From the NCBI RefSeq assembly GCF_021533835.1, contig NZ_JAKFYQ010000001.1, forward strand, positions 1,928,427 to 1,992,426: a DNA stretch of 64,000 bases, read 5' to 3'. A program made the translations under genes and the position numbers. Positions 1,171-18,122 of the stretch are shown here, one piece after another; positions within the stretch are counted from its first letter, which is position 1, and the number at the start of each line of letters is the position of its first letter. The DNA comes from Synechococcus sp. Nb3U1 (lineage in GTDB: Bacteria > Cyanobacteriota > Cyanobacteriia > Thermostichales > Thermostichaceae). Under the pieces are notes generated by a model. It saw nothing but the letters and a program-made list of their open reading frames with translations. It did not search any database and was not told where the DNA came from.

Positions 1171-1200
1171 GGCTGGCGCTACGACCAAATTATGCTTAGT

Positions 1201-1894
1201 CTAATCACTATGATTGAGCCAAAATTCCCTTACTCTGCCAAAGTGGGTTAACCGCTCCTCGATCTTAGCAATCTCTCGCGGATAGAACTCTGCTAAGGTG
1301 TCGCACAGTTCTAGCATCCATTGCTTACGTGAGTACCCAGGGTTGACGGTTATCACATTTGAGTTAGCAATCTGAATTTGCCCCCATCCCAAGGCTCCAA
1401 TTGTTAAGCAGTCCCACCCTAGAAACTCTATTGGCGCAAACGTTACTCTTTCAACTTCAACGCGGGTTCCCTCAACATCATACGCAACCATTAGAACCGC
1501 AAAGACGTTCTTATCTGACTCGTAGAAACGAGTGAGCCGCTCTACAGAAGTTAAATTCGGCATATTAATCTACAGAAGTTAAATTCGGCATATTAAATTT
1601 TGTGCTCAGCCTGTGTGTTTTTACATCAATGACGTAATAAAAGCCGTTGTCATCCTCGAAAGCCAGATCAGCCATTGCTCTTCGGGCAAAGTTTGCTGAG
1701 TAGTTTTTACAAATTTCTTCGCCGAGCACTTGCTGTAGATTGCTGCCAAGAACATCCTGAATAGCATCACCAACTGCCCTTGGACTGTTTGCAGTAGATG
1801 CGGACAAGTAATCTTCTTGAGAATTCAGAAATTCTCTAATAGCTTCTTGGACTTCACCAAACTTGTCGCTGTAGAAAATCTGACTCTTTTCCAT
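1201..1894 (-). pseudogene. Type II restriction endonuclease, frameshifted by a 28-bp tandem duplication
   Basis: Two minus-strand reading frames, 1565-1894 (109 aa) and 1201-1563 (120 aa), are halves of one gene. The first ends ...NMPNLTSVD-stop and the second begins MPNLTSVERL; the repeated residues come from an exact 28-bp tandem duplication (1541-1568 and 1569-1596). Removing one copy restores an uninterrupted 221-residue protein. A PD-(D/E)xK-type nuclease pattern is visible: D76 followed by D90-V-K92. The gene follows the DNA methyltransferase with 5 bp between them, the usual layout of a type II restriction-modification pair. As read, the nuclease is split after its catalytic motif and is probably inactive. 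The recognition sequence cannot be inferred. Confidence 0.75.
1541..1596. repeat. 28-bp perfect tandem duplication inside the endonuclease gene
   Basis: Two adjacent identical copies (1541-1568, 1569-1596), each beginning TCTACAGAAG and ending GGCATATTAA. Because 28 is not a multiple of three, the duplication shifts the frame and brings in a TAA stop. It looks like a recent slippage event, since the copies have not diverged. Confidence 0.95.
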
Positions 1895-1899
1895 CAGGA

Positions 1900-2976: not shown

Positions 2977-3130
2977 TTGTAGGATTGAGCAATTGACCCC
3001 TTAGCTTACCAGATTTTGGAAATATGGCTTCATAGCCTTATAACTTTTTCGGTTTGAGTATGCCCGATACTTGTAACTTCTGATACCCGCAAGTGATTAT
3101 TCGGTAATGCCACCACCCAGGAACGAAGCC

Positions 3131-3217
3131 AGCTAACGTTCGCGCTCACCGGACGCAGATAAACTTTGCAACCAACCGACAGTACTGAGTCGTTCCGGTG
3201 CAGCGCGGTTGTTATGC
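3131..3217 (-). other. attC site of cassette 11 (NTF2-like)
   Basis: R'' GCATAAC (minus strand, 3217-3211) and R' GTTAGCT (3137-3131), 87 bp. The arms CGCGCTCACCGGA and TCCGGTGCAGCGCG pair imperfectly. It closely resembles the attC at 11771-11858. Confidence 0.9.
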
Positions 3218-3221
3218 GGCA

Positions 3222-3626
3222 CTAGGTCATTGAAATCACTGGGTAATTATAACTTTCCTTGACGACTAAACCATCTTTCCAATAACCGATCGAAAGTTGA
3301 TTGCTTTTGTTATCAATGATCTGTTCACCATATCTAATGGTGAAATCGTTGTACCAATTGGAAACTACAACGAAGTCATAACTGTGATCGGCTGAGACTG
3401 CAATATCTTGACTAATCAATCTAGACTCTCTAAACTCGACCAACATTTCGTTGAAAAAGATAGCTCTTCCTTGGCGGCAGGCTTCTTTCCCTGTGGTGAT
3501 CGTACCGTCGCCTTCAATCATCACAGTATCCTCAGCATAGTATTTTTCCAAGGCTACTGATGTTTGAAACGTAACAACTAAATTGTTAATGTCTGCCAAC
3601 GCGGCTTGTAGTTCTTCAATCGTCAT
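3222..3626 (-). CDS. NTF2/SnoaL-like small protein (integron cassette)
   Basis: A 134-residue soluble protein starting at the ATG at 3626 (MTIEELQAAL). The sequence pattern, an N-terminal helix followed by alternating beta-strand segments with GDGTITTGKEA, fits the NTF2-like / SnoaL / DUF4440 fold; no catalytic activity can be assigned. The same frame stays open far upstream into the next cassette, but that extension crosses the attC at 3733-3792 and is not coding. It is the only gene of cassette 11. Confidence 0.65.
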   Translation of the reverse strand: MTIEELQAALADINNLVVTFQTSVALEKYYAEDTVMIEGDGTITTGKEACRQGRAIFFNEMLVEFRESRLISQDIAVSADHSYDFVVVSNWYNDFTIRYGEQIIDNKSNQLSIGYWKDGLVVKESYNYPVISMT

Positions 3627-3732
3627 AAGTAAAATAGTAAGGTTTTGGGAATTCAGAGCAAATTTTAGCCTACTGTGTACAATCGCGTCCCACAAATAAT
3701 ACTCCGATTGCGCCCTAGCTGTAATCGAAGCT

Positions 3733-3792
3733 GCATAACGCTCAGCATCAGCGGCGGCGTGCAGCGCCGTCCGCTGCAACCGTTTGTTGGGC
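3733..3792 (-). other. attC site of cassette 10 (NurA-HerA-methyltransferase)
   Basis: A short 60-bp site: R'' GCCCAAC (3792-3786, minus strand) and R' GTTATGC (3739-3733), with strongly complementary arms (CAGCGGCGGC / GCCGTCCGCTG). Its R'' differs by one base from the complement of the cassette start core GTTAGGC at 8243-8237, the only mismatch in the array. Confidence 0.85.
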
Positions 3793-3831
3793 GTCGCTGT
3801 CCCGGATTTATGCCCACCGCACCGATGAGAG

Positions 3832-4938
3832 CTAGTGACGGATCGCCCATACGTCATACTCGACCATCGGTTTGGACTTGATGCGCAGGAAGGCATCCGC
3901 CTGGCGCTTGCCTTCTGTGGCAGACCCGGCCTCCCTGATGGTGGTGATGCGCCAGCCGCTGTCACTGAGGGAGCTCTTGATGAGGTCGAGCGGGTCGGCG
4001 CGCCTGCCTGTGATGCCGCCGAACCGGATGACCATCTTGGCATCTTCCGCGCACACGTTCTCCGCGTTGCGCCATACCTGACGCAGATCGGCCGCAAAGT
4101 CCTCAGGGCTCGAATGAACGACCTGATCGCGGTTGGTGTAGTCGACAGCGTCGGGGCCGCCGACGAACCAGTTGCGAAGCCACTGGTCGGGGATGTAGGT
4201 GCGCATACCATAGTACGGGGGTGAGGTGATCACCCAGTCGAACCGAGTGTCCGGGTTTTCAGGTTGGAGCGCCTCGGCCTCCCGGCTGTCCGCCAATCGC
4301 ACGGCTCCCGTGATGTCGAAAAACGTTCCGTAGTAGCGTTTCGCCCGCCGTTCAATCACGGCCAAGACATCGATAGGCTCAGGCACAAGCCCTCGCTCCT
4401 GCCAGAAGCGTGTCGCATAGGCAGGCTTAGGGGCGTAGGTGCGGGGGCATTGGTTGGAGAAGTAGCTCGGGAAGGTCTTCTGCTTCGGGCCATGCAGCGC
4501 ACCCAGGACGATGCCGCGGAGTGCGATGCGGGCGTCCGTGGTGCAGTCCTCCAGAAATGCCTCCCGGAATCGACACAGCGCGTCCAGCACTGTCGGGTGA
4601 AAGCACAAGCGCCAAAACTCACCCGTCGGGATATGACGCGCCTCACGTTCGGTCAGAATCTTGCGTGCTTCGGCAAGGATGTCATCAACGGTGGCCGTCG
4701 CGAGCTTGGATGCCGTAATAGCTACGGCAACGGGGCTGGAATCTACCCCAAGGGAGCGGAGGCCGACAAGTCGTGTAGTGAAATTGGTGGTGCCCCGGCC
4801 GCAGAATGGATCCAGCACGACCTGGCCAGCCCGAGCATGCTGCTTAAGAATGCCAAGCGGGAAATCCAGCGGGAACATCGTGAAGTACGGACAAATCCCA
4901 TTCAAGACAGCATCTATACGCTCGGGGTTAACGGTCAT
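3832..4938 (-). CDS. DNA methyltransferase of the NurA-HerA cassette
   Basis: A DNA methyltransferase of 368 residues if it starts at the ATG at 4938. That start overlaps the HerA stop as ATGA and is preferred to the GTG at 4992 or the ATG at 4956, both inside herA. The SAM-binding motif I DPFCGRGTT (residues 43-51) precedes the catalytic motif TSPPY (238-242). S-P-P-Y is most often seen in N4-cytosine enzymes, but adenine cannot be excluded. It is the third gene of a NurA-HerA-methyltransferase cassette and is GC-rich like its two partners. A self/non-self marking role for the linked HerA-NurA pair is an inference from context. Confidence 0.82.
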   Translation of the reverse strand: MTVNPERIDAVLNGICPYFTMFPLDFPLGILKQHARAGQVVLDPFCGRGTTNFTTRLVGLRSLGVDSSPVAVAITASKLATATVDDILAEARKILTEREARHIPTGEFWRLCFHPTVLDALCRFREAFLEDCTTDARIALRGIVLGALHGPKQKTFPSYFSNQCPRTYAPKPAYATRFWQERGLVPEPIDVLAVIERRAKRYYGTFFDITGAVRLADSREAEALQPENPDTRFDWVITSPPYYGMRTYIPDQWLRNWFVGGPDAVDYTNRDQVVHSSPEDFAADLRQVWRNAENVCAEDAKMVIRFGGITGRRADPLDLIKSSLSDSGWRITTIREAGSATEGKRQADAFLRIKSKPMVEYDVWAIRH

Positions 4939-7049
4939 TTCCTGACTCTTATCCATGTTTTCCCGGTACTCGGTTTCTTGAAAGTCTCCCACGCCGTAGA
5001 TTGTTGTCCGAACACAGCGCTCATCGCCTTCGACACCAGGTTGTAAGCAAACTGACGACGGTCATCCAAGTGTTCTGGCAAGTGATCCATTAGAAACTGC
5101 TGAACCCCATACCACGGTATGCCATTCTGCGCTTCGAGTTTCTGACGAAGATCGTCATTTTGCCTGAAAGCCTCAATGGCGGCCTGCTCGATGGCCGCCA
5201 TAACATCCATTGACTCGGTTTCTGTGGCTTCCGTTTCTTCGGGAAACAAACTGCTTACGTCCGGGGCTTCAGGAATTCTGGCTGTCGTCGTAGTCTGCCC
5301 CGCCATTGCAAATTTGCTGCACAGCGTTTGTGCGTAGGTGTGACCGGCGGGTTGGTTGTAGCCAGGGTCCCGCAACGAGAACATCTTCTCGAACGACAGG
5401 GCGCGAAGGCTGACCGGATAGGGCTTGCCTCCAACAGAACTCCAAAATACACCTTGCCCCGGGATGGGCTCGTTGAGCAGCGAGCTCAACAAGTCATCAC
5501 TGAAATGGGCATTGGCCCGCTTCAAGGACGTGAGATCCGCCGCTGACAGCAGGTGGAAGATGAACCAGTTGTCGCCCTGGCTGAGGATCTCGACAGGAAT
5601 ACTGCCCGGCTGCTGGGTAATCAGCAGCGCGCCGAGATCGTACTTGCGACCTTCCTTCACCCAGGCGATATAGGGCTCGGCCGCTGGTGCGTTCTCGTTC
5701 AGTACAGACTGCGCTTCTTCGACGACAGCGATCGTTGGGATCGTCTTTGGATCGGCTGCCGTGAATTCCTGCTGGTTGCGGTCGAAGATCCGGCGCAGGA
5801 TCAGGCCGGAGAGCACCAGGGATTGACCGCCACGCATCTGGGAGACGTCGATGACGCACAGTTTCCCTTCGGAGAGCGCATGAACCAGCATGTCCATGAG
5901 CTGACTGCTCTTGTCATGCAGCATCTTCACGATGGCCGTCATGTTGCCTCTGGCCGCTAGGGCCTCAGCCTCCTGCCGCTGAGGATTGAGATCGAGCAGT
6001 CGGCAAATATCGTCAAGCGGCGTAGTGTTGCCGTTGGTGTCGATCAGATTGACCAACGACTCCCACCGGTCTTGCGGAAGCCCGCGCAGCTTCCGAACGT
6101 TCTGCTGCTCCTGGCGTTCTGGTCCGAGCGCGATCGAAATCACGTCTCCTAGGCGTAGGCGGCGAATATCCAGCTTGATGCCGCCAGCCACGAACGATTG
6201 ATAGAAGGGGCTCGGATTTTTCCTGTCGGTGAAGACGACGAGCTTGTCCTCAAGAGCAGGGACGTCGCAAAGGCCGGGGCGACCCTTGTCGTCAGGCCAG
6301 AAATACTCGCCATCAGGGTCGAAGATCACCGTGCCCACGGGCACCTGCTTGCCGGCGCGCTTGGTGACGAAGGGCGTCGTCTCGTAGAGTTTCGAGAAGA
6401 GCAGCTTGTTGAGATTGGATTTGCCGAAGCCCGCTCTGGCAAAGATGAAGCTGCGGCGAGACACCAGCGACTCGATCGGAAAGCGGACCAAGACCTCCGG
6501 GGCAACCACCTGCATCCATTCCTGCGACTGGAATGACTTGCTGCCCGTGGCATAGATGTACTCGCCAAAGGCCAGATGGCCGATGGGAGCGCCGTCAATG
6601 TTGTGACCGGCGATCTCGCGCAGCACCTCGTCATTTGGAAAGGCTACCTTGCTACCGACATGGGGGAGCCGGCGATGCGAAGGGACGAAGGTCAGCCCCT
6701 TCCCATTCTTGCGCAACACGCCCAACACACGGATGTTGACCCGGTACTTGAGATACTGCTCGCGCAGGTCTTCGGGGATCGGCCGGTCTTCGCGGACCGC
6801 GCGGATGTTGAACTCCTCGCCGGAGCCGAAGGACAGCTTGCCCTCCGAGGAGAAAGAGGCGATGCGGCCCAACACCGCCTCATCGGGCGTCTCCAATTGG
6901 ACGAGGAGGAACTGCCCGTGCATCGGGATGTTCTGGAACTCGTTCCGGTACGGCAACACGAGGTCGGCGTGGAACTCCATGCCTCCTTGCTGGAAGCCCC
7001 GGAAGATGCCAACGACCTGTTCCCTGGGAAAGAGTTGGATTTCTGCCAT
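4935..7049 (-). CDS. HerA-family hexameric ATPase/DNA translocase
   Basis: A 704-residue HerA/FtsK-superfamily ATPase. An N-terminal region compatible with the HAS-barrel is followed by Walker A ARAGFGKS (residues 204-211), a DPDGEYFW segment (244-251) characteristic of HerA, and Walker B AVVEEAQ (441-447) with paired glutamates. HerA pumps DNA and acts with the nuclease NurA in archaeal end resection and in several bacterial anti-phage systems. Here nurA lies 11 bp upstream and a DNA methyltransferase overlaps the 3' end by 4 bp, so the three are probably co-expressed. Base composition is GC-rich compared with neighbouring cassettes, pointing to a different donor. Confidence 0.88.
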   Translation of the reverse strand: MAEIQLFPREQVVGIFRGFQQGGMEFHADLVLPYRNEFQNIPMHGQFLLVQLETPDEAVLGRIASFSSEGKLSFGSGEEFNIRAVREDRPIPEDLREQYLKYRVNIRVLGVLRKNGKGLTFVPSHRRLPHVGSKVAFPNDEVLREIAGHNIDGAPIGHLAFGEYIYATGSKSFQSQEWMQVVAPEVLVRFPIESLVSRRSFIFARAGFGKSNLNKLLFSKLYETTPFVTKRAGKQVPVGTVIFDPDGEYFWPDDKGRPGLCDVPALEDKLVVFTDRKNPSPFYQSFVAGGIKLDIRRLRLGDVISIALGPERQEQQNVRKLRGLPQDRWESLVNLIDTNGNTTPLDDICRLLDLNPQRQEAEALAARGNMTAIVKMLHDKSSQLMDMLVHALSEGKLCVIDVSQMRGGQSLVLSGLILRRIFDRNQQEFTAADPKTIPTIAVVEEAQSVLNENAPAAEPYIAWVKEGRKYDLGALLITQQPGSIPVEILSQGDNWFIFHLLSAADLTSLKRANAHFSDDLLSSLLNEPIPGQGVFWSSVGGKPYPVSLRALSFEKMFSLRDPGYNQPAGHTYAQTLCSKFAMAGQTTTTARIPEAPDVSSLFPEETEATETESMDVMAAIEQAAIEAFRQNDDLRQKLEAQNGIPWYGVQQFLMDHLPEHLDDRRQFAYNLVSKAMSAVFGQQSTAWETFKKPSTGKTWIRVRK

Positions 7050-7060
7050 GTTGTGCTCCC

Positions 7061-8203
7061 TTATCCGTACCGGCGTTGCGCCGGGTCGGCATCCTGAAGC
7101 TGAAATGCGTCCAAGGTCCCCGCGTCGCCGCCGAGACTTGATCGGACGCCTTCGTAGATGAAGTCCTGCAGGATGTCGAAATCGAAATCGACCAGGGCCG
7201 CGTTTTCATGTGCCTTTTGCAGGCAACGCGGATAGTGCGGCACCGGGAAGCCGTTGATCGCGTCGGCGAGCATCGAACCGAGGATGGCTTGAGCCTCGCT
7301 AACTTGTGGAACAAAGATATCCACCGGCCACACGGGGTCGCGTCGGTGCGACCCGAACTTCACTAAAAACATCTTGCCGCCGACGAACTTGTTGATCTCC
7401 CCACCCTCACCAGCGCGGTCATCGCCTCGGGCGAATTCCAACCACACGTAGGCTTTCTCCTCTACTTCGCGTGGCACCTCTACATAGGCGGGATAGTCGG
7501 TCTGAAGAACGCCTTCCAACGCCATTGCCAAGCGGTATCGGGACAGCACCTTGCTGTGCTTGGCCACACCAGCGAGATACACGCGACGACGGCTCTTGCT
7601 CCACTGTGCTTTGATGCGCTCCTCAATACCTTGGAGCAGTCGCTGGAACAGGTCCTTGGCGAAAACCTTGCTGCGCAGTAGGCCGTCACAAATGATGAGT
7701 GTGTCGGTACCGTAGTCCTTTCCGAGTATTTTGAACAAGATGGCCCACTCGACTAGCTCCCGGTAGACCTGCACCCAGCTGGGAGACACAGGCTTGTTTT
7801 TTTCTGGTCGTGGGAAGACGGGAGAAAGGTTTTGAAGGGATGCTACGTCCAAGTACGCCATCATCTCGCCCAGTGCCGTGCGAGGTGTTCCATCAGGCTC
7901 GAATTGGCGATTGTCGAGCTTGTCGATGGGTGTCGTCGGCGAGACCGCCTCCAGGCAGTACTCGTTGTTGCTGCTGTCCACCACCCTGACCAGCTGTATG
8001 AGGAAGGGATCGAACTGGAGCTGGTTGTTGCCGCCATCGGTGGCGACCAGCGAGATCGACGTCGTGGCACGTGGTTGGATGCGGCGTGTGGCGCTCTTCA
8101 GGGGGCGAATCTCTTCCCGCAGTGCATCCAGCACCCATTGGTCGGTGCCGATGCAGTCTGCGATTGCCTCCCTCAGTTGGGCTTGGCTTGCCGGGTCGAT
8201 CAT
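7061..8203 (-). CDS. NurA-domain nuclease
   Basis: A 380-residue protein with NurA-family features: an aspartate motif near the N-terminus (VATDGGNNQ, D56), a second one (TLIICDGLL, D173) and the downstream GVAKHSK segment (about 212-218). NurA is an RNase-H-like, metal-dependent 5'-3' exonuclease/endonuclease loaded on DNA by HerA. It is the first gene of cassette 10, starting about 35 bp after the attC core at 8237-8243. It probably forms a complex with the following HerA. Confidence 0.8.
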   Translation of the reverse strand: MIDPASQAQLREAIADCIGTDQWVLDALREEIRPLKSATRRIQPRATTSISLVATDGGNNQLQFDPFLIQLVRVVDSSNNEYCLEAVSPTTPIDKLDNRQFEPDGTPRTALGEMMAYLDVASLQNLSPVFPRPEKNKPVSPSWVQVYRELVEWAILFKILGKDYGTDTLIICDGLLRSKVFAKDLFQRLLQGIEERIKAQWSKSRRRVYLAGVAKHSKVLSRYRLAMALEGVLQTDYPAYVEVPREVEEKAYVWLEFARGDDRAGEGGEINKFVGGKMFLVKFGSHRRDPVWPVDIFVPQVSEAQAILGSMLADAINGFPVPHYPRCLQKAHENAALVDFDFDILQDFIYEGVRSSLGGDAGTLDAFQLQDADPAQRRYG

Positions 8204-8236
8204 CTTCCAAGACCTCTCGGTCGGTCAGATAGTGAC

Positions 8237-8323
8237 GCCTAACGGCTCAAATCAGCGGCAGCAGATAACTCTGAACTCAGCAGCAACGGCTTTCAACCGT
8301 CCGCTGCATTTGAATTGTTGTGC
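8237..8323 (-). other. attC site of cassette 9
   Basis: R'' GCACAAC (8323-8317, minus strand) and R' GTTAGGC (8243-8237), 87 bp, with arms CAGCGGCAGC / CCGTCCGCTG. The R'' is the exact complement of the cassette 9 start core at 8910-8916. Confidence 0.87.
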
Positions 8324-8334
8324 CGCTGTCGCTA

Positions 8335-8571
8335 CTAGCTCACTGACAACAACACCTCTTCTACAGGCTTTGGCACTTCGATCGGGTAAAACCGATTTGC
8401 AGAAAAAGCGTAATCCTCACCGCTTTCATCAATCACCCGAACTAACCCGTTTGCTTTTGCTTCCTCATCAGCAACCACTCGGTATATTTTGCCAACCTCC
8501 AATGAAGCTTCATAGCCCTCATTGTTCAGGCACACCGCAAACTGATTTGATTGGATTTGCTCGGCTTTCAT
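8335..8571 (-). CDS. Small hypothetical protein (integron cassette)
   Basis: A 78-residue acidic soluble protein (MKAEQIQSNQ...) taken from the ATG at 8571; a TTG at 8577 would overlap the preceding stop as TTGA. No domain is recognised. It is the second gene of cassette 9 and is probably translationally coupled to the gene before it. Confidence 0.6.
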   Translation of the reverse strand: MKAEQIQSNQFAVCLNNEGYEASLEVGKIYRVVADEEAKANGLVRVIDESGEDYAFSANRFYPIEVPKPVEEVLLSVS

Positions 8572-8573
8572 AG

Positions 8574-8825
8574 TCAATCCAGAAACGGTAGCTTGAGCTT
8601 GAACTCTTTTTTGCCGATCCCATGAGCTTCATACCAATGAATCTCGGCTAACCGTATCATACCGTTTGCAAGCTGAACCTGGGCAATGCCCTTCAACTTT
8701 CTCCACTTGCCTCGACCGTACTGCTTCTGTAGTCGTGCCCGATCGCGGATTCCCGTCCCTGTGGCAATTACCTCAATGTTTGTGATATTGCCAATAATCT
8801 CAAAGTCCACGCGAGAGCGATCCAA
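8574..8825 (-). CDS. Small hypothetical protein (integron cassette)
   Basis: Up to 83 residues, basic in the middle (IRDRARLQKQYGRGKWRKLK). The start is uncertain: TTG at 8825 or GTG at 8810, with no ATG upstream of the conserved-looking part. A plausible beta-rich fold with an internal basic loop; no function assigned. First gene of cassette 9. Confidence 0.55.
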   Translation of the reverse strand: MDRSRVDFEIIGNITNIEVIATGTGIRDRARLQKQYGRGKWRKLKGIAQVQLANGMIRLAEIHWYEAHGIGKKEFKLKLPFLD

Positions 8826-8909
8826 AAAGGTGCTGTTTGATACTAGCGTACTTTGATCTTTGCCATGACATCAATATCCCAACGACTGCCATCATTCGCA
8901 ACCAAAGCG

Positions 8910-8995
8910 GCACAACGGTGAAGCTCAACGGCGGCAGACAACCTTTGCATCACCACCAATGTCTCGGCTCCGTCCGTTGCAGCGCAGTGTTAGCC
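8910..8995 (-). other. attC site of cassette 8 (membrane protein + toxin-antitoxin)
   Basis: R'' GGCTAAC (8995-8989, minus strand) and R' GTTGTGC (8916-8910), 86 bp, with arms near GCTCAACGGCGGC and CCGTCCGTTGCAGC. R'' is the exact complement of the cassette start core at 10373-10379. Confidence 0.88.
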
Positions 8996-9040
8996 TGCTG
9001 ACAACTGCAACTACCTACGGCTTTTCCAGTACCCGGGTTC

Positions 9041-9301
9041 TCAGCTGCAATGCATCACCGCCAGAATAAGAATGTAGTCCGGCTCAATCGTATAGAGAAT
9101 TCCATACGGAAACCTGCGTGTCATACATTGTCGAACGTCCTCATCGATAGCAACGTAGCGAGTAGGAGATTCTCTAATACGATAAACTGCATCCTCAACA
9201 GCATCAATAAACGCCTGTGCCACCTCAGTCCGTTGTTCTGCATAATATTGAACAGCCTCAGCATATTCTGTGAGAGCTTCAGGATGAAAAACATACTTCA
9301 T
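9041..9301 (-). CDS. RelE/ParE-family toxin, C-terminally truncated by a TGA
   Basis: An 86-residue toxin of the RelE/ParE superfamily (MKYVFHPEALTEYAEAVQYY...), translationally coupled to its antitoxin by an ATGA overlap at 9298-9301. The conserved C-terminal strand ends ...VMHCS followed by TGA. Reading on in the same frame gives EPGYWKSRR before a TAG, which looks like the GYW-containing tail normal for this family. A single CGA-to-TGA (Arg-to-stop) change would explain it. Loss of the tail probably reduces or abolishes toxicity. Known members either cleave mRNA on the ribosome or poison gyrase; which applies here cannot be told. Confidence 0.8.
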   Translation of the reverse strand: MKYVFHPEALTEYAEAVQYYAEQRTEVAQAFIDAVEDAVYRIRESPTRYVAIDEDVRQCMTRRFPYGILYTIEPDYILILAVMHCS

Positions 9302-9528
9302 TGCCCTAGTAACCGTCTCACTTGAGCCAAAGCCTCTTCTCCTGGAATAGGTTGCGCAGAACCATCACGAACCTGATCTCGTCGTTTCTTGGCTTCAGTA
9401 ATCCAAGCCGCTCGGATGGTTGGGTCGGTATCAAATTCAAGGCTTTCAACTAGCTTTTCTGCTAGAAGTGCCCTTGACACACTAGGGAGAGCTAGAAGTT
9501 CCTCTGTTAGCTGCTCAATCGACCGCAT
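9298..9528 (-). CDS. Addiction-module antitoxin (Unstab_antitox-like)
   Basis: A 76-residue acidic protein with the segment LPSVSRALLAEKLVESL near its N-terminus, typical of the short antitoxins paired with RelE/ParE toxins. It precedes and overlaps the toxin gene by 4 bp, the normal order for type II toxin-antitoxin modules. Such modules are common in chromosomal integrons, where they are thought to stabilise the array. Confidence 0.82.
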   Translation of the reverse strand: MRSIEQLTEELLALPSVSRALLAEKLVESLEFDTDPTIRAAWITEAKKRRDQVRDGSAQPIPGEEALAQVRRLLGQ

Positions 9529-9667
9529 AAATCCTCGCAGGGTAATAAATCTTGATTACAATTTTAGCAAGATTCAACGTGCCAGAGTTGAAGTCATTTC
9601 ACTCGGCTCAGAGCTATTATTTAGCCTGTGAATTAAAATGGCACTCACGCTCAAAACCGGTTTGTAC
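9529..9667. other. Intergenic spacer within cassette 8, no attC
   Basis: No attC core pair is visible here, so the membrane protein gene and the toxin-antitoxin pair share one cassette. The spacer is AT-rich and could hold the toxin-antitoxin promoter; no clear operator was identified. Confidence 0.5.
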
Positions 9668-10279
9668 TTATCTATCCTGATCAGATGGCGTTTCGTCCTC
9701 TGGTGATTGTCGCTCCTTTCTTAGTCCAGTCACTACAGAATCTAATACATCAGGATGAGTTGCTGCAAGTTTAAGTAGAGACGATAGAACAGTAGTTGAT
9801 GTCTTTTGTGAAGTATCTTCAAGCGTGTCTGAAGTAGAAGATTTATCAGGCAAGAACCTATCAGTTATAGAAACCTCACTCGCCCGTTTAAGCATAGCGA
9901 CAAGAGGTTGATTATTATCGAGAAACTTCTCAAAGATCTCTTTCAATTCACTTATGGATTCTCGCTGTTCTTGCTGAGTTGCCTGAATCCTCTCCTGATT
10001 TTGCTTAATTTCATCCTGGCTTTGTTTGATCTCGTTTAATTCTAAACTGACTCCCTCTTTCCCAAACTGTAATTTGGATAACCGCTGCAAAGTTTCTGAA
10101 TTTAGTAGAAGGACTACTGTGAATACAATAACTTCGGGTATTTGAAATCTCTTACTTTGTTTATCGACTTGACCTAACAATACCAGTAATAAATAGACCA
10201 GGCCAAATAGTGTGATAACGATGGACAGGATTGAACGGAAGTTTGTATCAGCTTTTTTCTGGTAATGCTCAGTTTTCAT
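9668..10279 (-). CDS. Membrane-anchored coiled-coil protein (hypothetical)
   Basis: A 203-residue protein with two hydrophobic segments (about residues 16-36 and 48-58), then a long polar, Gln/Glu-rich coiled coil (about 80-120, IKQSQDEIKQNQERIQ) and an acidic, Ser/Thr-rich tail. The topology suggests an inner-membrane protein with a cytoplasmic coiled coil. No enzymatic domain is seen. It is the first gene of cassette 8, upstream of the toxin-antitoxin pair. Confidence 0.6.
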   Translation of the reverse strand: MKTEHYQKKADTNFRSILSIVITLFGLVYLLLVLLGQVDKQSKRFQIPEVIVFTVVLLLNSETLQRLSKLQFGKEGVSLELNEIKQSQDEIKQNQERIQATQQEQRESISELKEIFEKFLDNNQPLVAMLKRASEVSITDRFLPDKSSTSDTLEDTSQKTSTTVLSSLLKLAATHPDVLDSVVTGLRKERQSPEDETPSDQDR

Positions 10280-10372
10280 TTACACTCTTGTCCCAAATGC
10301 AAGCTCATGGCAACTTGAAACGGAATGCTAACAGATAATCTTCCTGCTACGTCCCAACTAAGAAACGAAGCA

Positions 10373-10498
10373 GGCTAACGACCAAGCTCAGCGACCGCCG
10401 TCGGAAACGCCCGGTCGGCTGCAACAGTCGCTGCCAAATTACCCAAACCGTCCAACTGCCCAGCGGGGCGGCGGTTCGCTGCAGCGCTCTGGTTAGGC
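10373..10498 (-). other. attC site of cassette 7 (126-bp type)
   Basis: R'' GCCTAAC (10498-10492, minus strand) and R' GTTAGCC (10379-10373). This is a long, GC-rich 126-bp site nearly identical over its interior to the 126-bp attC at 15431-15556. Confidence 0.9.
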
Positions 10499-10507
10499 GT
10501 CGTTCTA

Positions 10508-10753
10508 CTAGTCATGACACTCACCCTCCAAAACCCAATTGAGGCGCATCTCCTCAGCCAATGTGTCAGGAACAATAATGCCCGCCGTCATGCCGGGGGA
10601 GATCACGTCTATGTCGCGGTCATACGCTCGAACGGTGTGGAAGATAATCATCAGGTCTCGTCTCATGATCTCCTGAACGCCGTCTGACTTCGTAATCACT
10701 GTCGTGCGGTCACCGCGTCGAATCTCATCACCACAACAACGCCCGCCGACCAA
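10508..10753 (-). CDS. Small hypothetical protein (integron cassette 7)
   Basis: Up to 81 residues from a TTG at 10753, no ATG before MRRDLMII. A short in-frame-closed peptide frame (MRHIKFSIGRIEAIGN) sits just upstream in the same cassette in another frame, so the gene may be frameshifted or start internally. The middle (RAYDRDIDVISPGMTAGIIV) is compatible with a small alpha/beta protein. No function assigned. Confidence 0.4.
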   Translation of the reverse strand: MVGGRCCGDEIRRGDRTTVITKSDGVQEIMRRDLMIIFHTVRAYDRDIDVISPGMTAGIIVPDTLAEEMRLNWVLEGECHD

Positions 10754-10824
10754 GGCCTCTCAGTTACCAATGGCTTCGATACGACCGATGGAAAATTTGA
10801 TATGGCGCATGGGGTGTGCGAGAC

Positions 10825-10911
10825 GCCTAACGTTGCTGTTCAGCGGTTGCGGATCAATCTTGCTCCCCTACAGCCAGAACTCACCAATCCGTTGCAACAG
10901 CGTTGTTAGCT
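10825..10911 (-). other. attC site of cassette 6
   Basis: R'' AGCTAAC (10911-10905, minus strand) and R' GTTAGGC (10831-10825), 87 bp, with arms GTTGCTGTTCAGCGG and CCGTTGCAACAGCG. R'' is the exact complement of the cassette 6 start core at 11133-11139. Confidence 0.87.
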
Positions 10912-11132
10912 CAGCGACGCACCGATCGCCCCCTAACCACGCCTCACCCCCAATCTCCTGGGCGGTTTCGGGATCACCGATCGCCCCTCGCTATGGCCCT
11001 CACCGATAACCTGCTGGGCGCTTTCGCAACCACCAACAGGACTCAAATGACGGCCTCAACTGACAAGCTTCTGGGCGGTTTCGGGCTGACCGATCACGCT
11101 GAAGCACGAGTGTAAGGTCTGGATGCGGAGCT
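10912..11132. other. Cassette 6: short cassette without a leftward gene, with internal repeats
   Basis: About 220 bp between two attC sites. No convincing reading frame exists in the direction of the array. It holds imperfect repeats of TGGGCGGTTTCGGG followed by ACCGATCGCCC (around 10959, 11013 and 11073). On the plus strand an ATG at 10993 opens 40 codons in which TDNLLGAF and TDKLLGGF recur, ending at TAA 11113-11115. It could be a non-coding cassette, a promoter cassette or a gene in reverse orientation. Confidence 0.5.
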
Positions 11133-11196
11133 AGCTAACGGCTTGCCGCTCAGCCGCGCCGCCGAAGGCGGCGTCGGCTGGAGCGGCGGGTTGGGC
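11133..11196 (-). other. attC site of cassette 5 (GyrI-like)
   Basis: R'' GCCCAAC (11196-11190, minus strand) and R' GTTAGCT (11139-11133), 64 bp. It folds into an almost complete GC-rich hairpin around CGCCGCCGAAGGCGGCG. Confidence 0.9.
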
Positions 11197-11230
11197 GGCG
11201 CTTTGCGGTGCGAATTTATCCTTAGATTGC

Positions 11231-11701
11231 TTACTGCAGAGGAACACAATATTCCATAGTGTGCTCGTAGTAGACTTCAAAAATAGGGCGTTGCGAGTCT
11301 ATGATCAGTTGATGTTGCGGTATGTACTCCGTAAAGAAACGCCCGATAGTCTCTCCAATTGTAGCGGAGTTTTTGTCAAGCGATAGGACTGCATAACGTC
11401 CACCTGGTAGTTGCTTTGTTGAGATGTCTCCTGTGTTAGGGGATACTGCTGCAGTGAGCTCCAAGGCGCACTCATAACCGACCAATTGCGTATCATTTGT
11501 GTGTGGGATGCCAATCACCTTTAGTGCGGATGGATCATAACCGTGTTGTTGAACCCAATCTTTGATGCGTTGAAAACCGTCCCGAATTTTTTCGATGTAA
11601 TTGCCTGTAGTTTGCTGTATTTGGCAAGAAATATAAACAACGAAAACAGGTGGCAAATCTTGGAGAGTAACGTGTAATGATTGTCCAGAAAAAACGCTCA
11701 T
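11231..11701 (-). CDS. GyrI-like / AraC effector-binding domain protein
   Basis: A 156-residue soluble protein from the ATG at 11701 (MSVFSGQSL); an in-frame start at 11722 adds 7 residues. The pattern of paired beta-alpha-beta halves, ending with IFEVYYEHTMEYCVPL, fits the GyrI-like small-molecule-binding domain (SHS2 fold). Relatives bind hydrophobic ligands or gyrase; the ligand here is unknown. Sole gene of cassette 5. Confidence 0.65.
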   Translation of the reverse strand: MSVFSGQSLHVTLQDLPPVFVVYISCQIQQTTGNYIEKIRDGFQRIKDWVQQHGYDPSALKVIGIPHTNDTQLVGYECALELTAAVSPNTGDISTKQLPGGRYAVLSLDKNSATIGETIGRFFTEYIPQHQLIIDSQRPIFEVYYEHTMEYCVPLQ

Positions 11702-11770
11702 TAGAATCTCCTGTACTTGCAATTTGGTAGGTATCGCTCACAACTGTTAGCAATCGAATAGGGCACAGCC

Positions 11771-11858
11771 GCCCAACGTTCGCGCTCACCGGACACAGAT
11801 AACCTTTGCAACTCAACCAATTATGTTGACACGTTCCGGTGCAGCGCGGTTGTTAGCC
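11771..11858 (-). other. attC site of cassette 4
   Basis: R'' GGCTAAC (11858-11852, minus strand) and R' GTTGGGC (11777-11771), 88 bp. The interior nearly matches the attC at 3131-3217. Confidence 0.9.
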
Positions 11859-11874
11859 TGTATGGGAAGTGTGC

Positions 11875-12264
11875 TTACAGGTCTTCTAATAATGGGTTAC
11901 AAGCAAACATAAATTCTTCAACGGGTTTGCCTTCCAACAAATGCTCTTGAATAATGCGTTCACAAACCTCTGGTGTAACGTGACAATACCAAGTCCCTTC
12001 AGGGTAGACAACTGCAAGCGGGCCACCTCGACAAAACATCAAACATTCCACTTCTGTGCGATAAATGTTGTGTCCATCTTGAGTAAGTTGCTTCAGTCGT
12101 TTACCCAAATATTTCCAGGTTTTAGCACCTTCTTCAGCAGGGCAACAAGTATCTCCACTTTGGCGATGCCCTGTACACAATAAAATATGGCGTTCATAAC
12201 CACCTTGCCCATTAACAGCAATACCTCGTGATTTAGCCTTCTTTTGCAAGGGTTTGATATCCAT
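11875..12264 (-). CDS. Thioredoxin-like 2Fe-2S ferredoxin
   Basis: A 129-residue protein with the cysteine pattern of thioredoxin-like 2Fe-2S ferredoxins: [14 protein letters not shown] (first pair) and ECLMFCRGG (second pair, C-x3-C). Such proteins pass single electrons, often in cyanobacterial redox regulation or cofactor enzymes. It follows the SAM methyltransferase gene by 13 bp in the same cassette, so the two are likely co-transcribed. Confidence 0.78.
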
Positions 12265-12277
12265 AATAAGTGGTACT

Positions 12278-13099
12278 TTAACGATGGTTGGAAATTGCAG
12301 TATACAAGCGTGTGCGATAAATCAGTCTTACCAAACCTTGTCGATCGCAAGAGCGTTGATGGAATACGGCTAAGTCCGACATGAGTTTTTCTAAACCTTT
12401 TCCTTCAGATGGTGTAAATCCTTGACTTCGAGCTAAACCGATTAGTCCTGGAAGATCTAAGGATTGATTGGAGACGAACTCATGTCGCTGTAAGTTTGTA
12501 AAGTAAGGCAACCATAGCCCTTGCCAAAACAGTTGATAACGTATGCTCTTGAGCCATGTTTCCGGTTGCATTCCAGATCGGAATTGGTTCTCTTGATCTT
12601 GGGATACTGCAAAAACCAAGCGAGTGTATTCTTTGGAAACAAGGTCATCTTGATCCCAAAAACTCCATGTTAATGCTAAACGTCCACTGGGTTTGAGGAT
12701 ACGGCGAAACTCTTTGAGACTTTTATCAAAATCAAACCAATGAAATGCTTGAAATGAGGTGACTAAATCGACTGATGCACTATCCAGGGGAATTTGTTCA
12801 GCAGTGCCAACCAGAAACTCTACGTTTTCATGCGAGGTCGCTGATGTTCTCATGTCTTCGTTGGGTTCGATCGCCAGAACCTGAATCCCTCGATCTGCCA
12901 ACAATCTTGCTCCAATCCCTGTTCCTGCACCAACATCCGCAGCAACAATCTGACTTAAATATCCCAAATCTGACAAAATTGTGCCGATTGCTGAGGCAGG
13001 GTAAATCGGGCGATACTTTTCGTAATCTTCGCCTCGATCAGAAAAATAGCTCAATGGATTCGTGATCGAATCTGAGGCAGTGGAGAAATCAAAACTCAA
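12278..13099 (-). CDS. Class I SAM-dependent methyltransferase
   Basis: A 273-residue UbiE/COQ5-like methyltransferase. The glycine-rich SAM-binding motif I ([13 protein letters not shown]) lies at about residues 52-64, followed by the acidic residue in [10 protein letters not shown]. The substrate is not evident. First gene of cassette 4, about 55 bp from the cassette start, followed by the 2Fe-2S protein. Confidence 0.8.
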
Positions 13100-13154
13100 T
13101 TTTCAGCCTCGCTGCGAGTTGCATTTTTAGGTTAACACAGAACCCAAGATTGCA

Positions 13155-13211
13155 GGCTAACGAGAGCATCAGCCGCACGCGGAGCGTGCCGGCTGGATGC
13201 GCTGGTTATGC
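13155..13211 (-). other. attC site of cassette 3 (Argonaute)
   Basis: The shortest attC in the array, 57 bp: R'' GCATAAC (13211-13205, minus strand) and R' GTTAGCC (13161-13155). The arms (GCGCATCCAGCCGGCACGC and GCGTGCGGCTGATGC) fold into an almost full-length hairpin with unpaired bases on one strand, as needed for single-strand recognition by IntI. Confidence 0.93.
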
Positions 13212-13237
13212 CGCTTTTCTTTGAAGTTTACCTTCTT

Positions 13238-15382
13238 TTACAACCAGAATGGCACGTCCCCTTCTGAATCCTTTGGTTTGATGCCAAGCAGTGAAAATTC
13301 TCCAATCTTGTCGCTGTAATGAATCGTCACTGGCAAACGCGGCTCTCTAACCGAACCATAATGCAAGAGCGTCAGCGATAGCGCCGAATGAATAGCATTT
13401 TCGATTGAGAAGGATAGTTCTGTCCTGATTTGAAGCGGACATGGTGTGCTGCCTTTGAAAGGAGGCAGTGAAGAAACCAAGAATGCTTCCGTATCGCTTA
13501 TTTTAAATGCTGTCCCCTTCGGCGGTCTGTCTATAGCGGAGGCGGATGTGCTTTGATAAAGACGGGGGGCTCCAGATTTGATTACTTCAACCAGATGGAA
13601 CTCTGCACCAATCTGTTTTGCCCATTCCTTCAATGCCGATTTTTCTCCGCCACGAAATTGTCCGTCACGATGAATCACGACTCGTTTGCCTTGAAATTCC
13701 TTGAGAGGGAAAAGACTGCGCAGAATACTGCTTGGTATTGTTTCTCCTTCAATCGGTGCATCGTGGATAATGTATCGTAGAAATTGACCATCGCTGAAAT
13801 AGACTCTTGCCATGGCAGTCGCGTTCATGGTTCCCGATAACTTTTGTTTCGCTCTACGAGCAATATCAATCCCAACGACAATATCAGCGTAAGGAAGCGG
13901 TTTCGCTAAAACAAATGGAACGTTCCTTGTTTTTGCTAATATACCCAACACGATATTGTCCATCGCATATTTTTCAGAGAATGTATCTTCATAGACAACT
14001 TGGCTCGGGATACCAAGTCGCATTGTCAATGACTTGAAGACATGATACATGCTCGCTTCTTCGCCTTCTTCCCGCTCGTCGTGGTATGCACTTCCAGGGA
14101 ATAGAGCAAGAAAAATGTCAGGCTTTGCCGATTCGAAACAGTTTATTGCGTTTTCCAAATTTGCTCGCGAAAGTCTTTCGATCTTCTGTTGACGTTGTCC
14201 ATTGACTTCAACTGATTGAATAGAGAAATTCAATTTCTCCAACGCGGCTTTGAGCTTACGTAGGAACGTCATCAATGCTTGCTGCGCAACTTGCGATGAC
14301 GCGTTAATTACCCCAATTTTTATAGGGTGTTTTTTGTCAGGAAATGCATTTGAACGTTTAAATGCGCCATGCTTTTCCAAGCTCTCATAAATGCGTTGCC
14401 CTTGATGAATTTTATCGTCGCCAACACGCAATTTGGGCTCAAAGGCCACATCGTGCGGTCCCAAGAATGCTTGCGGCAATGATTCAGAATTGAAACTGTT
14501 GGCGAGAATTCCGTTGTTTTTACCAATAGCGGCAATTTCACGAACAAGAGTGTATCTTGTTTGTGGATCAAGCCGCAATGCTTCGGAAACTTGACGTGGC
14601 TTCACTTTAAATTTCTTGAGATCACCCATTCGAACGACAGGGCGTAACATACTTGCAATATAAATATATTGGCTTGTGCGAGTTTCAATTTTAACAGTCA
14701 GTTCATCATCAGGAGCGCGACTAATCAAATTGCGTGTCATCTCATCGCTGGATTTACTGAGAAGCCGTTCACGCATTTCGCGAACATTGCCAGTAATCTC
14801 GACGATTGTCCCTTTGAAATCCTTCGCTGTCACAGCGACCATCATTCCGACAAGTTCTTGCGGACTTTTCAGGGTGGCGGCAAACTCATGGAGTAATTGA
14901 GTATGAAAAATGTTGGACGAAACAGTGATGGAAATCGCTGGTTCGTTGTTCACTGCCCAACCGCGTAAAGCGTAGTCGCGGTCAACTCGGATTTTGCCGA
15001 AATTCTGTTTTTTCGGCTCAAGCACTCTCCGAATTTCTGCTTGGTGGTTTGCGAGCAAACCGCGAGCTGTGAATTCGCCCTGCTCCCAAGCCGAAGGTTC
15101 CCATTTTGTATTAAGAGTAACACTCAGCACATCATTTAATCGTTCTTCTGTCCATAATTGTTTCAGAAATTCTTCAATTGCTTCATCTTGGGGCGGCTTG
15201 TCTGTGATGATTTGACCACCGCACCATACCCAATTCCCACCAAACTTATTCCGCAAGCGATATGCTAACTTTCCGCCGATTGCCGATACATCATCGCTCA
15301 CCGCTTTGATTGTATAGGCAGACAGCTTGGGCAACGCCTGAGGAATAACAGGAAAGACATCAACGTAGATAATCATATCCAT
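13238..15382 (-). CDS. Prokaryotic Argonaute (long, catalytic-type)
   Basis: A 714-residue long pAgo. The C-terminal PIWI domain holds a full DEDX tetrad: D506 (GIDIARR), the glutamate finger in PIEGETIP (E545 or E547), D573 (HRDGQF) and D691 (HYSDKIGEF). The MID region (about 415-495) keeps residues typical of 5'-phosphate guide binding, including Q461, K471, N476 and K484. The N-terminal half (1-350) fits the N, linker and PAZ regions. Catalytic long pAgos use short DNA or RNA guides to cut invading or plasmid DNA. It is the only gene of cassette 3 and stops 27 bp before its attC core. An ATG two codons downstream is an alternative start. Confidence 0.9.
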   Translation of the reverse strand: MDMIIYVDVFPVIPQALPKLSAYTIKAVSDDVSAIGGKLAYRLRNKFGGNWVWCGGQIITDKPPQDEAIEEFLKQLWTEERLNDVLSVTLNTKWEPSAWEQGEFTARGLLANHQAEIRRVLEPKKQNFGKIRVDRDYALRGWAVNNEPAISITVSSNIFHTQLLHEFAATLKSPQELVGMMVAVTAKDFKGTIVEITGNVREMRERLLSKSSDEMTRNLISRAPDDELTVKIETRTSQYIYIASMLRPVVRMGDLKKFKVKPRQVSEALRLDPQTRYTLVREIAAIGKNNGILANSFNSESLPQAFLGPHDVAFEPKLRVGDDKIHQGQRIYESLEKHGAFKRSNAFPDKKHPIKIGVINASSQVAQQALMTFLRKLKAALEKLNFSIQSVEVNGQRQQKIERLSRANLENAINCFESAKPDIFLALFPGSAYHDEREEGEEASMYHVFKSLTMRLGIPSQVVYEDTFSEKYAMDNIVLGILAKTRNVPFVLAKPLPYADIVVGIDIARRAKQKLSGTMNATAMARVYFSDGQFLRYIIHDAPIEGETIPSSILRSLFPLKEFQGKRVVIHRDGQFRGGEKSALKEWAKQIGAEFHLVEVIKSGAPRLYQSTSASAIDRPPKGTAFKISDTEAFLVSSLPPFKGSTPCPLQIRTELSFSIENAIHSALSLTLLHYGSVREPRLPVTIHYSDKIGEFSLLGIKPKDSEGDVPFWL

Positions 15383-15430
15383 ATCGTAGTTTCTCCTTCT
15401 GGTGGGAACGCTTACACGGCGATATTAGCG

Positions 15431-15556
15431 GCATAACGATCAAGCTCAGCGACCGCCGCCGGAAACGCCCGGTCGGCTGTAACAGTCGCTGACAGATTAC
15501 CCGAACCGTCCGACTGCCCAGCGGGGCGGCGGTTCGCTGCAGCGCCCTGGTTAGGC
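15431..15556 (-). other. attC site of cassette 2 (126-bp type)
   Basis: R'' GCCTAAC (15556-15550, minus strand) and R' GTTATGC (15437-15431). The interior is nearly identical to the attC at 10373-10498 although the associated genes are unrelated. Confidence 0.9.
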
Positions 15557-15569
15557 CACGTCGTTGTCA

Positions 15570-16004
15570 TCACCAAAATCTCCACCAAGGCCGTGCCGCA
15601 GTCGGTTGCGATGTTGCCTTTTGGAGCGCTGCGGTATTGGTGAAGATGGAATCAACCAGCACTCTCATGTCCTCCTTCAGGGCGTGGGAATGCCCCACTC
15701 CAATCAGTCGGTTCTGCCACGATTGGTTGTTCTCGGTGATGAACTCTTGGTGCGCAGCTTCCACCAATCCCTCGACATATTTCCTGCCGATACCGAGGCC
15801 CGCAAGCTGATCAACGATAATCGCGTGAATGTCCCCGACATCCATGAAGCAATGCACTCTCCCAATCCCAAAGACGTAACCATAAAGCGTGAAGCCGAAG
15901 ACTTGGCACATCAACTCGTCCTCAAGCTTCCAACGCGGGTCGGATGTAACTTGGCGCGTGATCGCTTCCGACTTCCCTTTGGCGTGTTGTTTTAGGTCAG
16001 ACAT
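15570..16004 (-). CDS. Hypothetical protein (integron cassette 2)
   Basis: A 144-residue soluble protein (MSDLKQHAKGKSEAI...). It has a mixed composition with hydrophobic segments around residues 36-50 but no clear membrane span, and a Trp-rich end (RPWWRFW). No family is recognised. It begins 11 bp after the cassette start core and ends just before its attC, so it fills its cassette. Confidence 0.6.
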   Translation of the reverse strand: MSDLKQHAKGKSEAITRQVTSDPRWKLEDELMCQVFGFTLYGYVFGIGRVHCFMDVGDIHAIIVDQLAGLGIGRKYVEGLVEAAHQEFITENNQSWQNRLIGVGHSHALKEDMRVLVDSIFTNTAALQKATSQPTAARPWWRFW

Positions 16005-16014
16005 ACGTGGAGTG

Positions 16015-16111
16015 GCCTAACGACCAAGCTCAGCGGCGGCGGGGGCCGAGTGAGCTACATGGCACGAAAAGTCTACACGGCCCCGCCGTCGGCTGCAGCG
16101 CCTGGTTCGGC
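16015..16111 (-). other. attC site of cassette 1
   Basis: R'' GCCGAAC (16111-16105, minus strand) and R' GTTAGGC (16021-16015), 97 bp. R'' is the exact complement of the first core at 16541-16547. The C-terminal codons of the cassette 1 gene overlap the right part of this attC. Confidence 0.88.
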
Positions 16112-16501
16112 CTGCTTGGGCTTGCGGGGTTTGAAGACCTTGCTTTGCTTGACAACCCCGGCGCGGTCATACACGGTCCACTGACCGACCTTGTTGCCGC
16201 CCTCGTATGTCCCTTCGTCCCAAAGCTGACCGTTGTCGTAATACCGTTGCCAGTGGCCGACCTGGACGCCGAACAGGAACCCCCCGGCCTGGAGCGGCTG
16301 ACCATTCTCGCGCCACCACTGCCACAGTCCGTGAAGCTCTCCGTTTGCGTACTCGCCGACTGCCTTCCGCTGCCCGTTCTTATACCAGTACTCCCACCGC
16401 CCGTGCTTCCTTCCGCCCCGGTATGCCCCCTCGCCGGCAAGCGTGCCGTCGGAGAAGAGCTCGCGGTGTGGTCCGTCCTGCGGATGATCGTCTTGATTCA
16501 T
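16073..16501 (-). CDS. MORN-repeat / YwqK-like protein (integron cassette 1)
   Basis: A 142-residue protein from the ATG at 16501 (a TTG at 16522 would add 7). It carries about five repeats of the type G-x-W-x-x-Y/W-x-x-N-G-Q-x-x-x-x-G (GRWEYWYKNGQRKAVGEY, GLWQWWRENGQ, GHWQRYYDNGQ), as in MORN / YwqK-family proteins, some of which act as antitoxins or surface proteins. The lysine-rich tail overlaps the attC. It is the first cassette after attI and so probably the best expressed and most recently inserted. Confidence 0.72.
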   Translation of the reverse strand: MNQDDHPQDGPHRELFSDGTLAGEGAYRGGRKHGRWEYWYKNGQRKAVGEYANGELHGLWQWWRENGQPLQAGGFLFGVQVGHWQRYYDNGQLWDEGTYEGGNKVGQWTVYDRAGVVKQSKVFKPRKPKQAEPGAAADGGAV

Positions 16502-16540
16502 GGGGTTCCCGTTCTGCCTCAAACGTCAAGCCCTTCCGCC

Positions 16541-16763
16541 GCCGAACCAGTGATTAAACTGCACGATCAACCTACATCGGTAGTATATCCCCCAACTTGC
16601 AAGGATAAACGGCAAAACAGCCCATATCCAGCCCCTGCCAGCCATCTGAATACACAAGCTGTACCCGCCAGATCACAGTTTAGTCAACCTATGTTAAGTT
16701 TCGCTAAGTTCATAGAGGTGTTGGATAGCATGTAGATTGTAAGGATATACGGCATGGATCCTC
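16541..16763 (-). other. attI region between the first cassette and intI
   Basis: The core GTTCGGC (minus strand, 16547-16541) marks the junction with cassette 1. To its right about 215 bp separate it from the integrase frame. This holds a 16-bp direct repeat with two mismatches, G[C/T]AAGGATA[A/T]ACGGCA (16599-16614 and 16739-16754), and the close pair TTAAGTTTCGCTAAGTT (16694-16710), both possible IntI or regulator sites. The exact attI extent cannot be fixed by eye. Confidence 0.6.
16658..16687 (-). promoter_or_regulatory. Candidate cassette promoter (Pc)
   Basis: On the minus strand TTGACT (16687-16682) is followed after 18 bp by TACAGC (16663-16658), pointing toward the cassette array. 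The -35 match is good and the -10 is poor. It is placed where an integron promoter is expected, but the sequence support is weak. Confidence 0.25.
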
Positions 16764-16856
16764 ATGAGCGGTTTCCCAGAAGTTGACCCCAGGTTTGACG
16801 AAGTGGTGAGATCTGAGCAGATCCCACCAGCACGATGATCCGATTATCGGAAGTGG

Positions 16857-18122
16857 GTGCGCTTCTACCTGCATTTCTGTAACAAGTATGGGCATCAACC
16901 AGGGGATCCTGGGAGTCTGCCGCTTTTTATCGCAAAACTGGCATCCAAGGGACAGACGGTGGAACAACAGGCGGAAGCGCAGCGGGCAGTTAGCTCCCTC
17001 CTCTCGCCATCTATTGAACTAAGGGGGAAGGCCCAGGCCCAGTCCGAAACCATAGAACTAGTAGTCGCTGACGAGAACTCAGTCGCTCCCATCGCAAAAG
17101 TCATACCGACGGTGGCCAAGGGGGGCTTACTCCCCGACAAGAAAAAACCGGATCCGATACGGGATCCTTGGCAGGAAGTGGCTGACAAGCTCAAAGCACA
17201 GATTATGCTGCGCCATTACTCACCCAGAACTCTAAAGGCTTACTCAACCTGGATGTGGAAACTCTGTCGGTTTTTAGACAATCAGCTACCATCAGAGGTC
17301 ACAAGCCAAGATGTCCAGCGGTTCCTAACAGATTTGGCGGTACGGCAGCAGGTCTCTGCCTCAGCTCAGAATCAAGCCTTTAACGCCCTACTGTTTCTCT
17401 TTCGACACGTCTTCGAGCGTGAGCTTGGAAACTTTGCGGATACCCCCAGAGCCAAACGCAGGCAGTCGATACCCACAGTGCTTTCTCGCTCAGAAGTGGC
17501 TTCACTCATCGAACAGTTGCAGCCACCCTATCGATTGATGGGGAAGCTCCTTTATGGATGCGGTTTGCGTCTTTCCGAGGCGCTATCTTTGCGGTTGCAT
17601 AATTTCAACTTTGATACCGGTATGCTCTCGGTACAGTTTGGTAAGGGGAGGAAATCTCGGACAGTGCCATTACCAGAGAGTATTCAGGGTGAGATTCAAG
17701 CGCAAGTAGAGCGCATCAAAGCTCTCCATCAGGAGGATTTAGCCAGGGGGTATGCCGGAGTATTTATGCCAGGAAACTTTGAAAAGAAAGCCAAAGGAGC
17801 GGCGCGAGAGCTAGCCTGGCAATGGTTTTTCCCTGCTCCCAACCTGACAAGGGTTAAAGAAACAGGGGAACTGCGTCGCTACCATGTGCAAGAAACCGAT
17901 ATTCAGCGAGCCATCAAAGCCGCTGCCTTGAGGGCCGGGATCCTGAAGCGAGTTTCACCGCATACCTTACGCCACAGCTTCGCCACCCACCTGCTGCAAG
18001 CCAATTACGATATCCGTCAGATCCAGCAGATGTTGGGTCACAGTGATGTCCGCACCACGATGATTTATACCCACACCATCAAGTCCGACCTCAAGCCGCT
18101 AAGAAGCCCATTGGATCTGTGA
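16857..18122 (+). CDS. intI: Integron integrase IntI (N-terminal in-frame TGA upstream)
   Basis: Tyrosine recombinase of 421 residues from the GTG at 16857. The catalytic set is complete: R238 (GLRLSEAL), K263 region (GKGRKSR), H369-x-x-R372 (HTLRHSF), H395 (LGHSD) and Y404 (MIYTH). The extra IntI-specific patch absent from XerC/XerD is present (about 300-328, ending LAWQWFFPAP). The same frame continues upstream to an ATG at 16764 (MSGFPEVDPRFDEVV...), interrupted only by a TGA at 16836-16838. The upstream residues run straight into the SAM-like N-terminal domain, so the original gene probably started at 16764 and suffered an Arg-to-stop change; whether the shorter form works is unknown. There is also an unusually long segment (about 50-105) before the core-binding domain. 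It diverges from the cassettes, the canonical integron layout. Confidence 0.92.
   Translation: MRFYLHFCNKYGHQPGDPGSLPLFIAKLASKGQTVEQQAEAQRAVSSLLSPSIELRGKAQAQSETIELVVADENSVAPIAKVIPTVAKGGLLPDKKKPDPIRDPWQEVADKLKAQIMLRHYSPRTLKAYSTWMWKLCRFLDNQLPSEVTSQDVQRFLTDLAVRQQVSASAQNQAFNALLFLFRHVFERELGNFADTPRAKRRQSIPTVLSRSEVASLIEQLQPPYRLMGKLLYGCGLRLSEALSLRLHNFNFDTGMLSVQFGKGRKSRTVPLPESIQGEIQAQVERIKALHQEDLARGYAGVFMPGNFEKKAKGAARELAWQWFFPAPNLTRVKETGELRRYHVQETDIQRAIKAAALRAGILKRVSPHTLRHSFATHLLQANYDIRQIQQMLGHSDVRTTMIYTHTIKSDLKPLRSPLDL

Follow-up and report, generated by a model that had tools for sequence, protein, structure and literature searches.

A probable recent nonsense mutation in the only integron integrase gene of a cyanobacterial chromosomal integron

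Results and Discussion

An interrupted integrase gene with a complete core

Does a chromosomal integron whose integrase gene is interrupted by a stop codon still have a working integrase and, if not, when was it lost? The question is raised by a window of 64,000 nucleotides, the whole stretch of DNA analysed here, at positions 1928427 to 1992426 of contig C1 in a cyanobacterial genome (3.49 Mb in 4 contigs, 99.89% complete, with phycobilisome genes present). The intI reading frame occupies positions 16764 to 18122 on the + strand and comprises 452 codons when the internal stop is counted as one residue. Counted from the ATG at 16764, the frame has 24 open codons, a TGA at 16836 to 16838 (codon 25, + strand), and then, with no shift, 427 open codons that run to 18119, with the terminal TGA at 18120 to 18122. 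Translation of 16764 to 17900, which reads MSGFPEVDPRFDEVVRSEQIPPAR, a stop, and then SDYRKWVRFYLHFCNKYG and onward, confirmed the original prediction of an in-frame TGA in the N-terminal region of the integrase with no change of frame. A frameshift in place of a nonsense change is ruled out, as codons around the TGA pair one to one with those of the closest orthologue (CGA TGA TCC in the window gene versus TCC TGG GCC in the orthologue, L053).

In a profile search, the frame after the TGA matched the integron integrase model TIGR02249 at 376.7 bits; because this exceeds the curated cut-off of 265, the frame is not a chance one. A canonical core-binding domain (Phage_int_SAM_4, Pfam PF13495, 91.1 bits; 17166 to 17411, + strand; helices 135 to 216) precedes the catalytic domain (Phage_integrase, PF00589, 122 bits; 17475 to 18107, + strand). 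Translation and alignment place the tyrosine recombinase catalytic residues (R269, H400, R403, H426, and Y435) and the IntI-specific additional segment GYAGVFMPGNFEKKAKGAARELAWQWFFP, and a Foldseek comparison gave 37% identity to the solved integron integrase 2a3v. As judged from its sequence, then, the catalytic core of the interrupted intI is complete. No second intI was found elsewhere in the genome, where the single candidate was a distant tyrosine recombinase at 992075, ruling out another intI acting in trans.

The stop lies in an extra N-terminal domain of a long-form clade

About 130 residues stand before the canonical IntI core in the window gene. The first 80 of these (16764 to 17003, + strand) form an extra domain of four confident helices (mean pLDDT of 85.7 when the extension was folded alone in AlphaFold), and the TGA, at residue 25, is predicted to fall within the second helix (residues 22 to 42). 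We read this extra domain as a second core-binding (SAM-like) domain, probably the product of a duplication. A profile built from the extension could be aligned over 71 columns to the core-binding domain that these proteins also carry (P of 8e-5 for a single comparison, probability 61%), and the best Foldseek matches to the extension were tyrosine recombinases (integron, Xer, and Cre) over their core-binding part, with weak E-values; for the extra domain alone the top match was again 2a3v at an E-value of 0.32, which leaves the structural assignment only suggestive. Three codons that every aligned relative possesses are also missing from the window gene, where the final helix of this domain ends (approximate site, 16992 to 16997, + strand).

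In a tree of 47 IntI rows, 16 carried the extension, and 15 of these fell with the window gene in one supported clade that stands apart from ordinary cyanobacterial IntI (100/100 support). Together with the alignments, this placement indicates that the extra domain of the window gene is homologous to that of the group, and the long-form intI likely came into cyanobacteria by transfer. Long IntI forms have been reported as a shared fusion of clade 15, found mainly in Deltaproteobacteria (Nemergut et al. 2008, PMC2426708). Like those proteins, which combine an IntI core with about 120 extra residues throughout the group, the window gene clusters in its supported clade with long forms from Desulfobacterota-type genomes, and we equate the two clades tentatively, by length and host group only. 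The window gene differs from clade 15 in being cyanobacterial and in bearing a nonsense codon. Copies with the extra domain were found neither on phages or plasmids among the best matches, all of which began after query residue 100, nor in a scan of viral_contigs.

In L097 and L089, which both group within the long-form clade, no extension could be detected in the 1.5 kb of upstream DNA retrieved, suggesting that the extra domain can be lost and that natural IntI of this clade may include core-only forms. Other intI genes found in the same family as the window genome (L047, L048, L049, L050, and L051, in G003, G004, G002, and G006) all belong to the ordinary type that has no extension, and every one of them is interrupted or truncated, a pattern of repeated decay in the family.

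Orthologues identify the native start and a tryptophan codon

Among 388 genomes of the class, one long orthologue was found, L053, in another cyanobacterium (G095). It is 75% identical to the window gene, has the same start and the same extra domain, and differs in being uninterrupted over its 440 codons. L053 begins MNKFPEVDPRFDQVLAAQQIPPASWANYRKWVRFYLDFC and a Desulfobacteraceae relative, L001, begins MGSFPQVDPKYGKVLASRQVPREEWHEHQKWVRYYLHFC; both starts correspond to ATG 16764, and both genes have TGG at the position of the TGA. Before the stop, 16 of 24 residues in L053 and 10 of 24 in L001 are identical to those of the window gene. Furthermore, DNA likeness to the G095 orthologue starts upstream of the ATG, at 16737 (blastn), so that the block at 16737 to 16763 (+ strand) resembles that before the orthologous intI. 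The original prediction took the codons before the TGA for a genuine IntI N-terminus unless orthologues proved to begin at the equivalent of 16857; the alignment rules out that later start, and the upstream codons are indeed integrase sequence.

Its suggestion of CGA as the original codon fared less well, since the two closest relatives have TGG; arginine occurs at this position in more distant relatives (L003 and L005). Given TGG in both L053 and L001, with the same start and frame, we take the TGA to be a Trp codon turned into a stop (TGG to TGA), the simplest reading of the aligned sequences. Relative to its intact orthologues the window gene thus carries the kind of lesion, TGA versus TGG, that marks a pseudogene. 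G095 itself holds a second, near-identical long-form copy (L077, 9211 to 9915) whose match ends after about 210 residues, so that an intact and a broken long-form intI coexist in one genome.

A probably young lesion and its predicted consequences

We asked whether the window gene has evolved as a gene long released from selection would. With L001 as the outgroup, unique amino acid changes numbered 25 in the window gene and 28 in the intact L053 (P = 0.78), or 12 and 18 when only the core was counted (P = 0.36), and the branch leading to the window gene is the shorter of the two (0.10 versus 0.17). A gene that had long been neutral would have more changes, and the absence of rate acceleration fits either a young lesion or continued use; the stop would therefore be recent, or the core still expressed. 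If dN/dS under selection is taken as 0.2 to 0.3, neutral evolution accounts for no more than about 11 to 20% of the window branch over all sites, a bound that the measured pair dN/dS of about 0.08 (YN00, with dS near saturation) would tighten.

We consider it probable that the TGA arose by recent nonsense mutation of the sole intI in this cyanobacterial chromosomal integron, the similar change counts (25 versus 28; core, 12 versus 18) and the shorter branch being our grounds for calling the break young. Two further observations count toward loss of function: the three-codon deletion lies within the same extra domain as the TGA, and the other intI genes of the same family of genomes are all broken or truncated. 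On the other side, the 427-codon core frame is fully open and conserved, as it would be for a shorter protein still in use, and the lack of the extra domain in L097 and L089 means that the domain may be dispensable. Among the outcomes listed in the original prediction, loss of integrase activity is the likeliest, the genome having no second intI. Initiation at the native ATG would yield a 24-residue peptide and no full-length integrase. If intI is dead, cassette capture and excision should, without another intI, cease or all but cease, and the array would still be carried. Such a mutation may have been tolerated because an active integrase brought no benefit or imposed a cost, an idea put forward for other integrons.

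A core-only product is the first alternative to be weighed. Translation could restart after the TGA from one of the in-frame GTG or ATG codons, giving an integrase in which the extra domain is partly or wholly missing but the full core is kept, with some activity. In-frame starts are at hand (GTG at 16857, 16959, 17112, and 17178; ATG at 17205 and 17253), of which three lie clearly upstream of the core, which begins near 17166 and is intact and conserved; ordinary IntI proteins do without the extra domain, as L097 and L089, inside the long-form clade, appear to do. However, no convincing ribosome-binding motif precedes the starts that lie ahead of the core, and no orthologue bearing the extra domain begins at the equivalent of 16857. 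The GTG at 16857 to 16859 (+ strand; residue 32), which is the first ATG, GTG, or TTG past the TGA and had been put forward as the restart, is a weak candidate: it has no Shine-Dalgarno match and falls in the middle of a predicted helix, which would be halved. A restart further down may shed the whole extra domain, and the GTG at 17112 to 17114 (+ strand) would give an IntI of ordinary length. A search for a promoter of the short form returned one sigma-70-like match, at 17182 to 17209, not clearly above shuffled sequences. Altogether, we regard restart as unlikely. We give still less credence to a stop that serves as a working split, in which a 24-codon leader would be translated and dropped and an internal start would supply an integrase minus its second core-binding domain. 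Were that so, enzyme level or site preference would be altered, the extra domain would be a dispensable recognition module, and L097 and L089 may have lost theirs independently in a like manner.

In favor of an assembly or sequencing error, with TGG as the true codon and the gene intact, the TGA differs by just one base (G to A) from the codon of the orthologues, and the rest of the gene is intact and evolves like a functional one. However, the codons flanking the TGA also differ from those of L053, as real divergence predicts, and the assembly is of few contigs and nearly complete, so we consider error improbable. Regulated or leaky readthrough is the least credible of these explanations: UGA is the leakiest stop codon and Trp the usual misreading residue, so that a near-cognate tRNA Trp could restore the orthologous residue and, with the downstream frame intact, yield a little full-length integrase, but the TGA occurs in no aligned relative, it is followed by T rather than the leakier C, and a profile search of the genome recovered prfB (RF2; 435.6 bits, above cut-off) and no match to selA, so that neither a missing RF2 nor Sec machinery points to recoding. 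Nothing, then, favors the control by readthrough that had also been proposed.

The adjacent cassette array

The array expected beside intI is real, as about ten attC-like elements accompanied by cassette ORFs on the - strand occupy 1081 to 16111. The elements start near 1081, 3127, 3729, 8233, 8906, 10369, 10821, 11767, 15427, and 16011, and were delimited by repeat families D1 to D4, core positions, and ORFs; a strict scan for RYYYAAC...GTTRRRY did not recover the array, whereas the repeat families did. A GTTAG-type 3' core lies downstream of six of the elements, and a GTTCGGC downstream of the one near 16011. The cassette ORF nearest intI was called at 16073 to 16522 (- strand). Between 16560 and 16764, no match to the cyanobacterial LexA-like box GTACNNNNGTWC was found with up to one mismatch.

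Several cassettes merit description. A long prokaryotic Argonaute of 714 residues (13238 to 15382, - strand; PADLOC pAgo, 915 bits, and Pfam Piwi) sits between the attC-like elements at 11767 and 15427; a narrow text search turned up no paper that clearly reports a pAgo carried as an integron cassette. Also between attC-like elements, the region from 3832 to 8203 (- strand) encodes a methyltransferase, a HerA-type ATPase (4935 to 7049), and a 380-residue protein with no family match (7061 to 8203), and this group looks like a multigene defence unit inside the array. A ParE-type toxin gene (9041 to 9301, - strand; PF05016, 41.3 bits) is a usual array-stabilizing cassette. Finally, an exact 28-bp tandem duplication at 1541 to 1596 breaks an ORF running from 1894 to 1201 (- strand) into two frames. 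This split ORF, which had no family match, comes after a type II DNA methyltransferase (1900 to 2976) and, by position, may be the partner restriction enzyme; the duplication is possibly a second recent loss in the same array.

Implications for integron decay

Predicted inactivity is common among intI genes, with published estimates of nearly one third (PMC2426708) and 43 to 46% (PMC3108266), and about 20 integrase sequences among the matches listed across the class also contain stops. The interrupted gene is thus a new and otherwise ordinary example of a known phenomenon, the common fate of such genes. Its nearest known counterpart is intI2 of class 2 integrons, which has an internal TAA at codon 179 (PMC8876359, PMC2426708). 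In both, a single internal stop interrupts an integrase gene that is otherwise whole and is accompanied by a stable array, and in intI2 activity returns on suppression of its stop. The intI2 stop lies in the core, whereas that of the window gene lies in the extra N-terminal domain, where a core-only product is conceivable.

The literature searched held no answer to whether recombination by long-form IntI needs the second core-binding domain. The window allele, with its stop, and the uninterrupted L053 offer a natural pair with which to ask that question. With a gene left whole but for one nonsense change, this locus would represent an integron silenced via its integrase and caught early, next to an array that carries defence genes.
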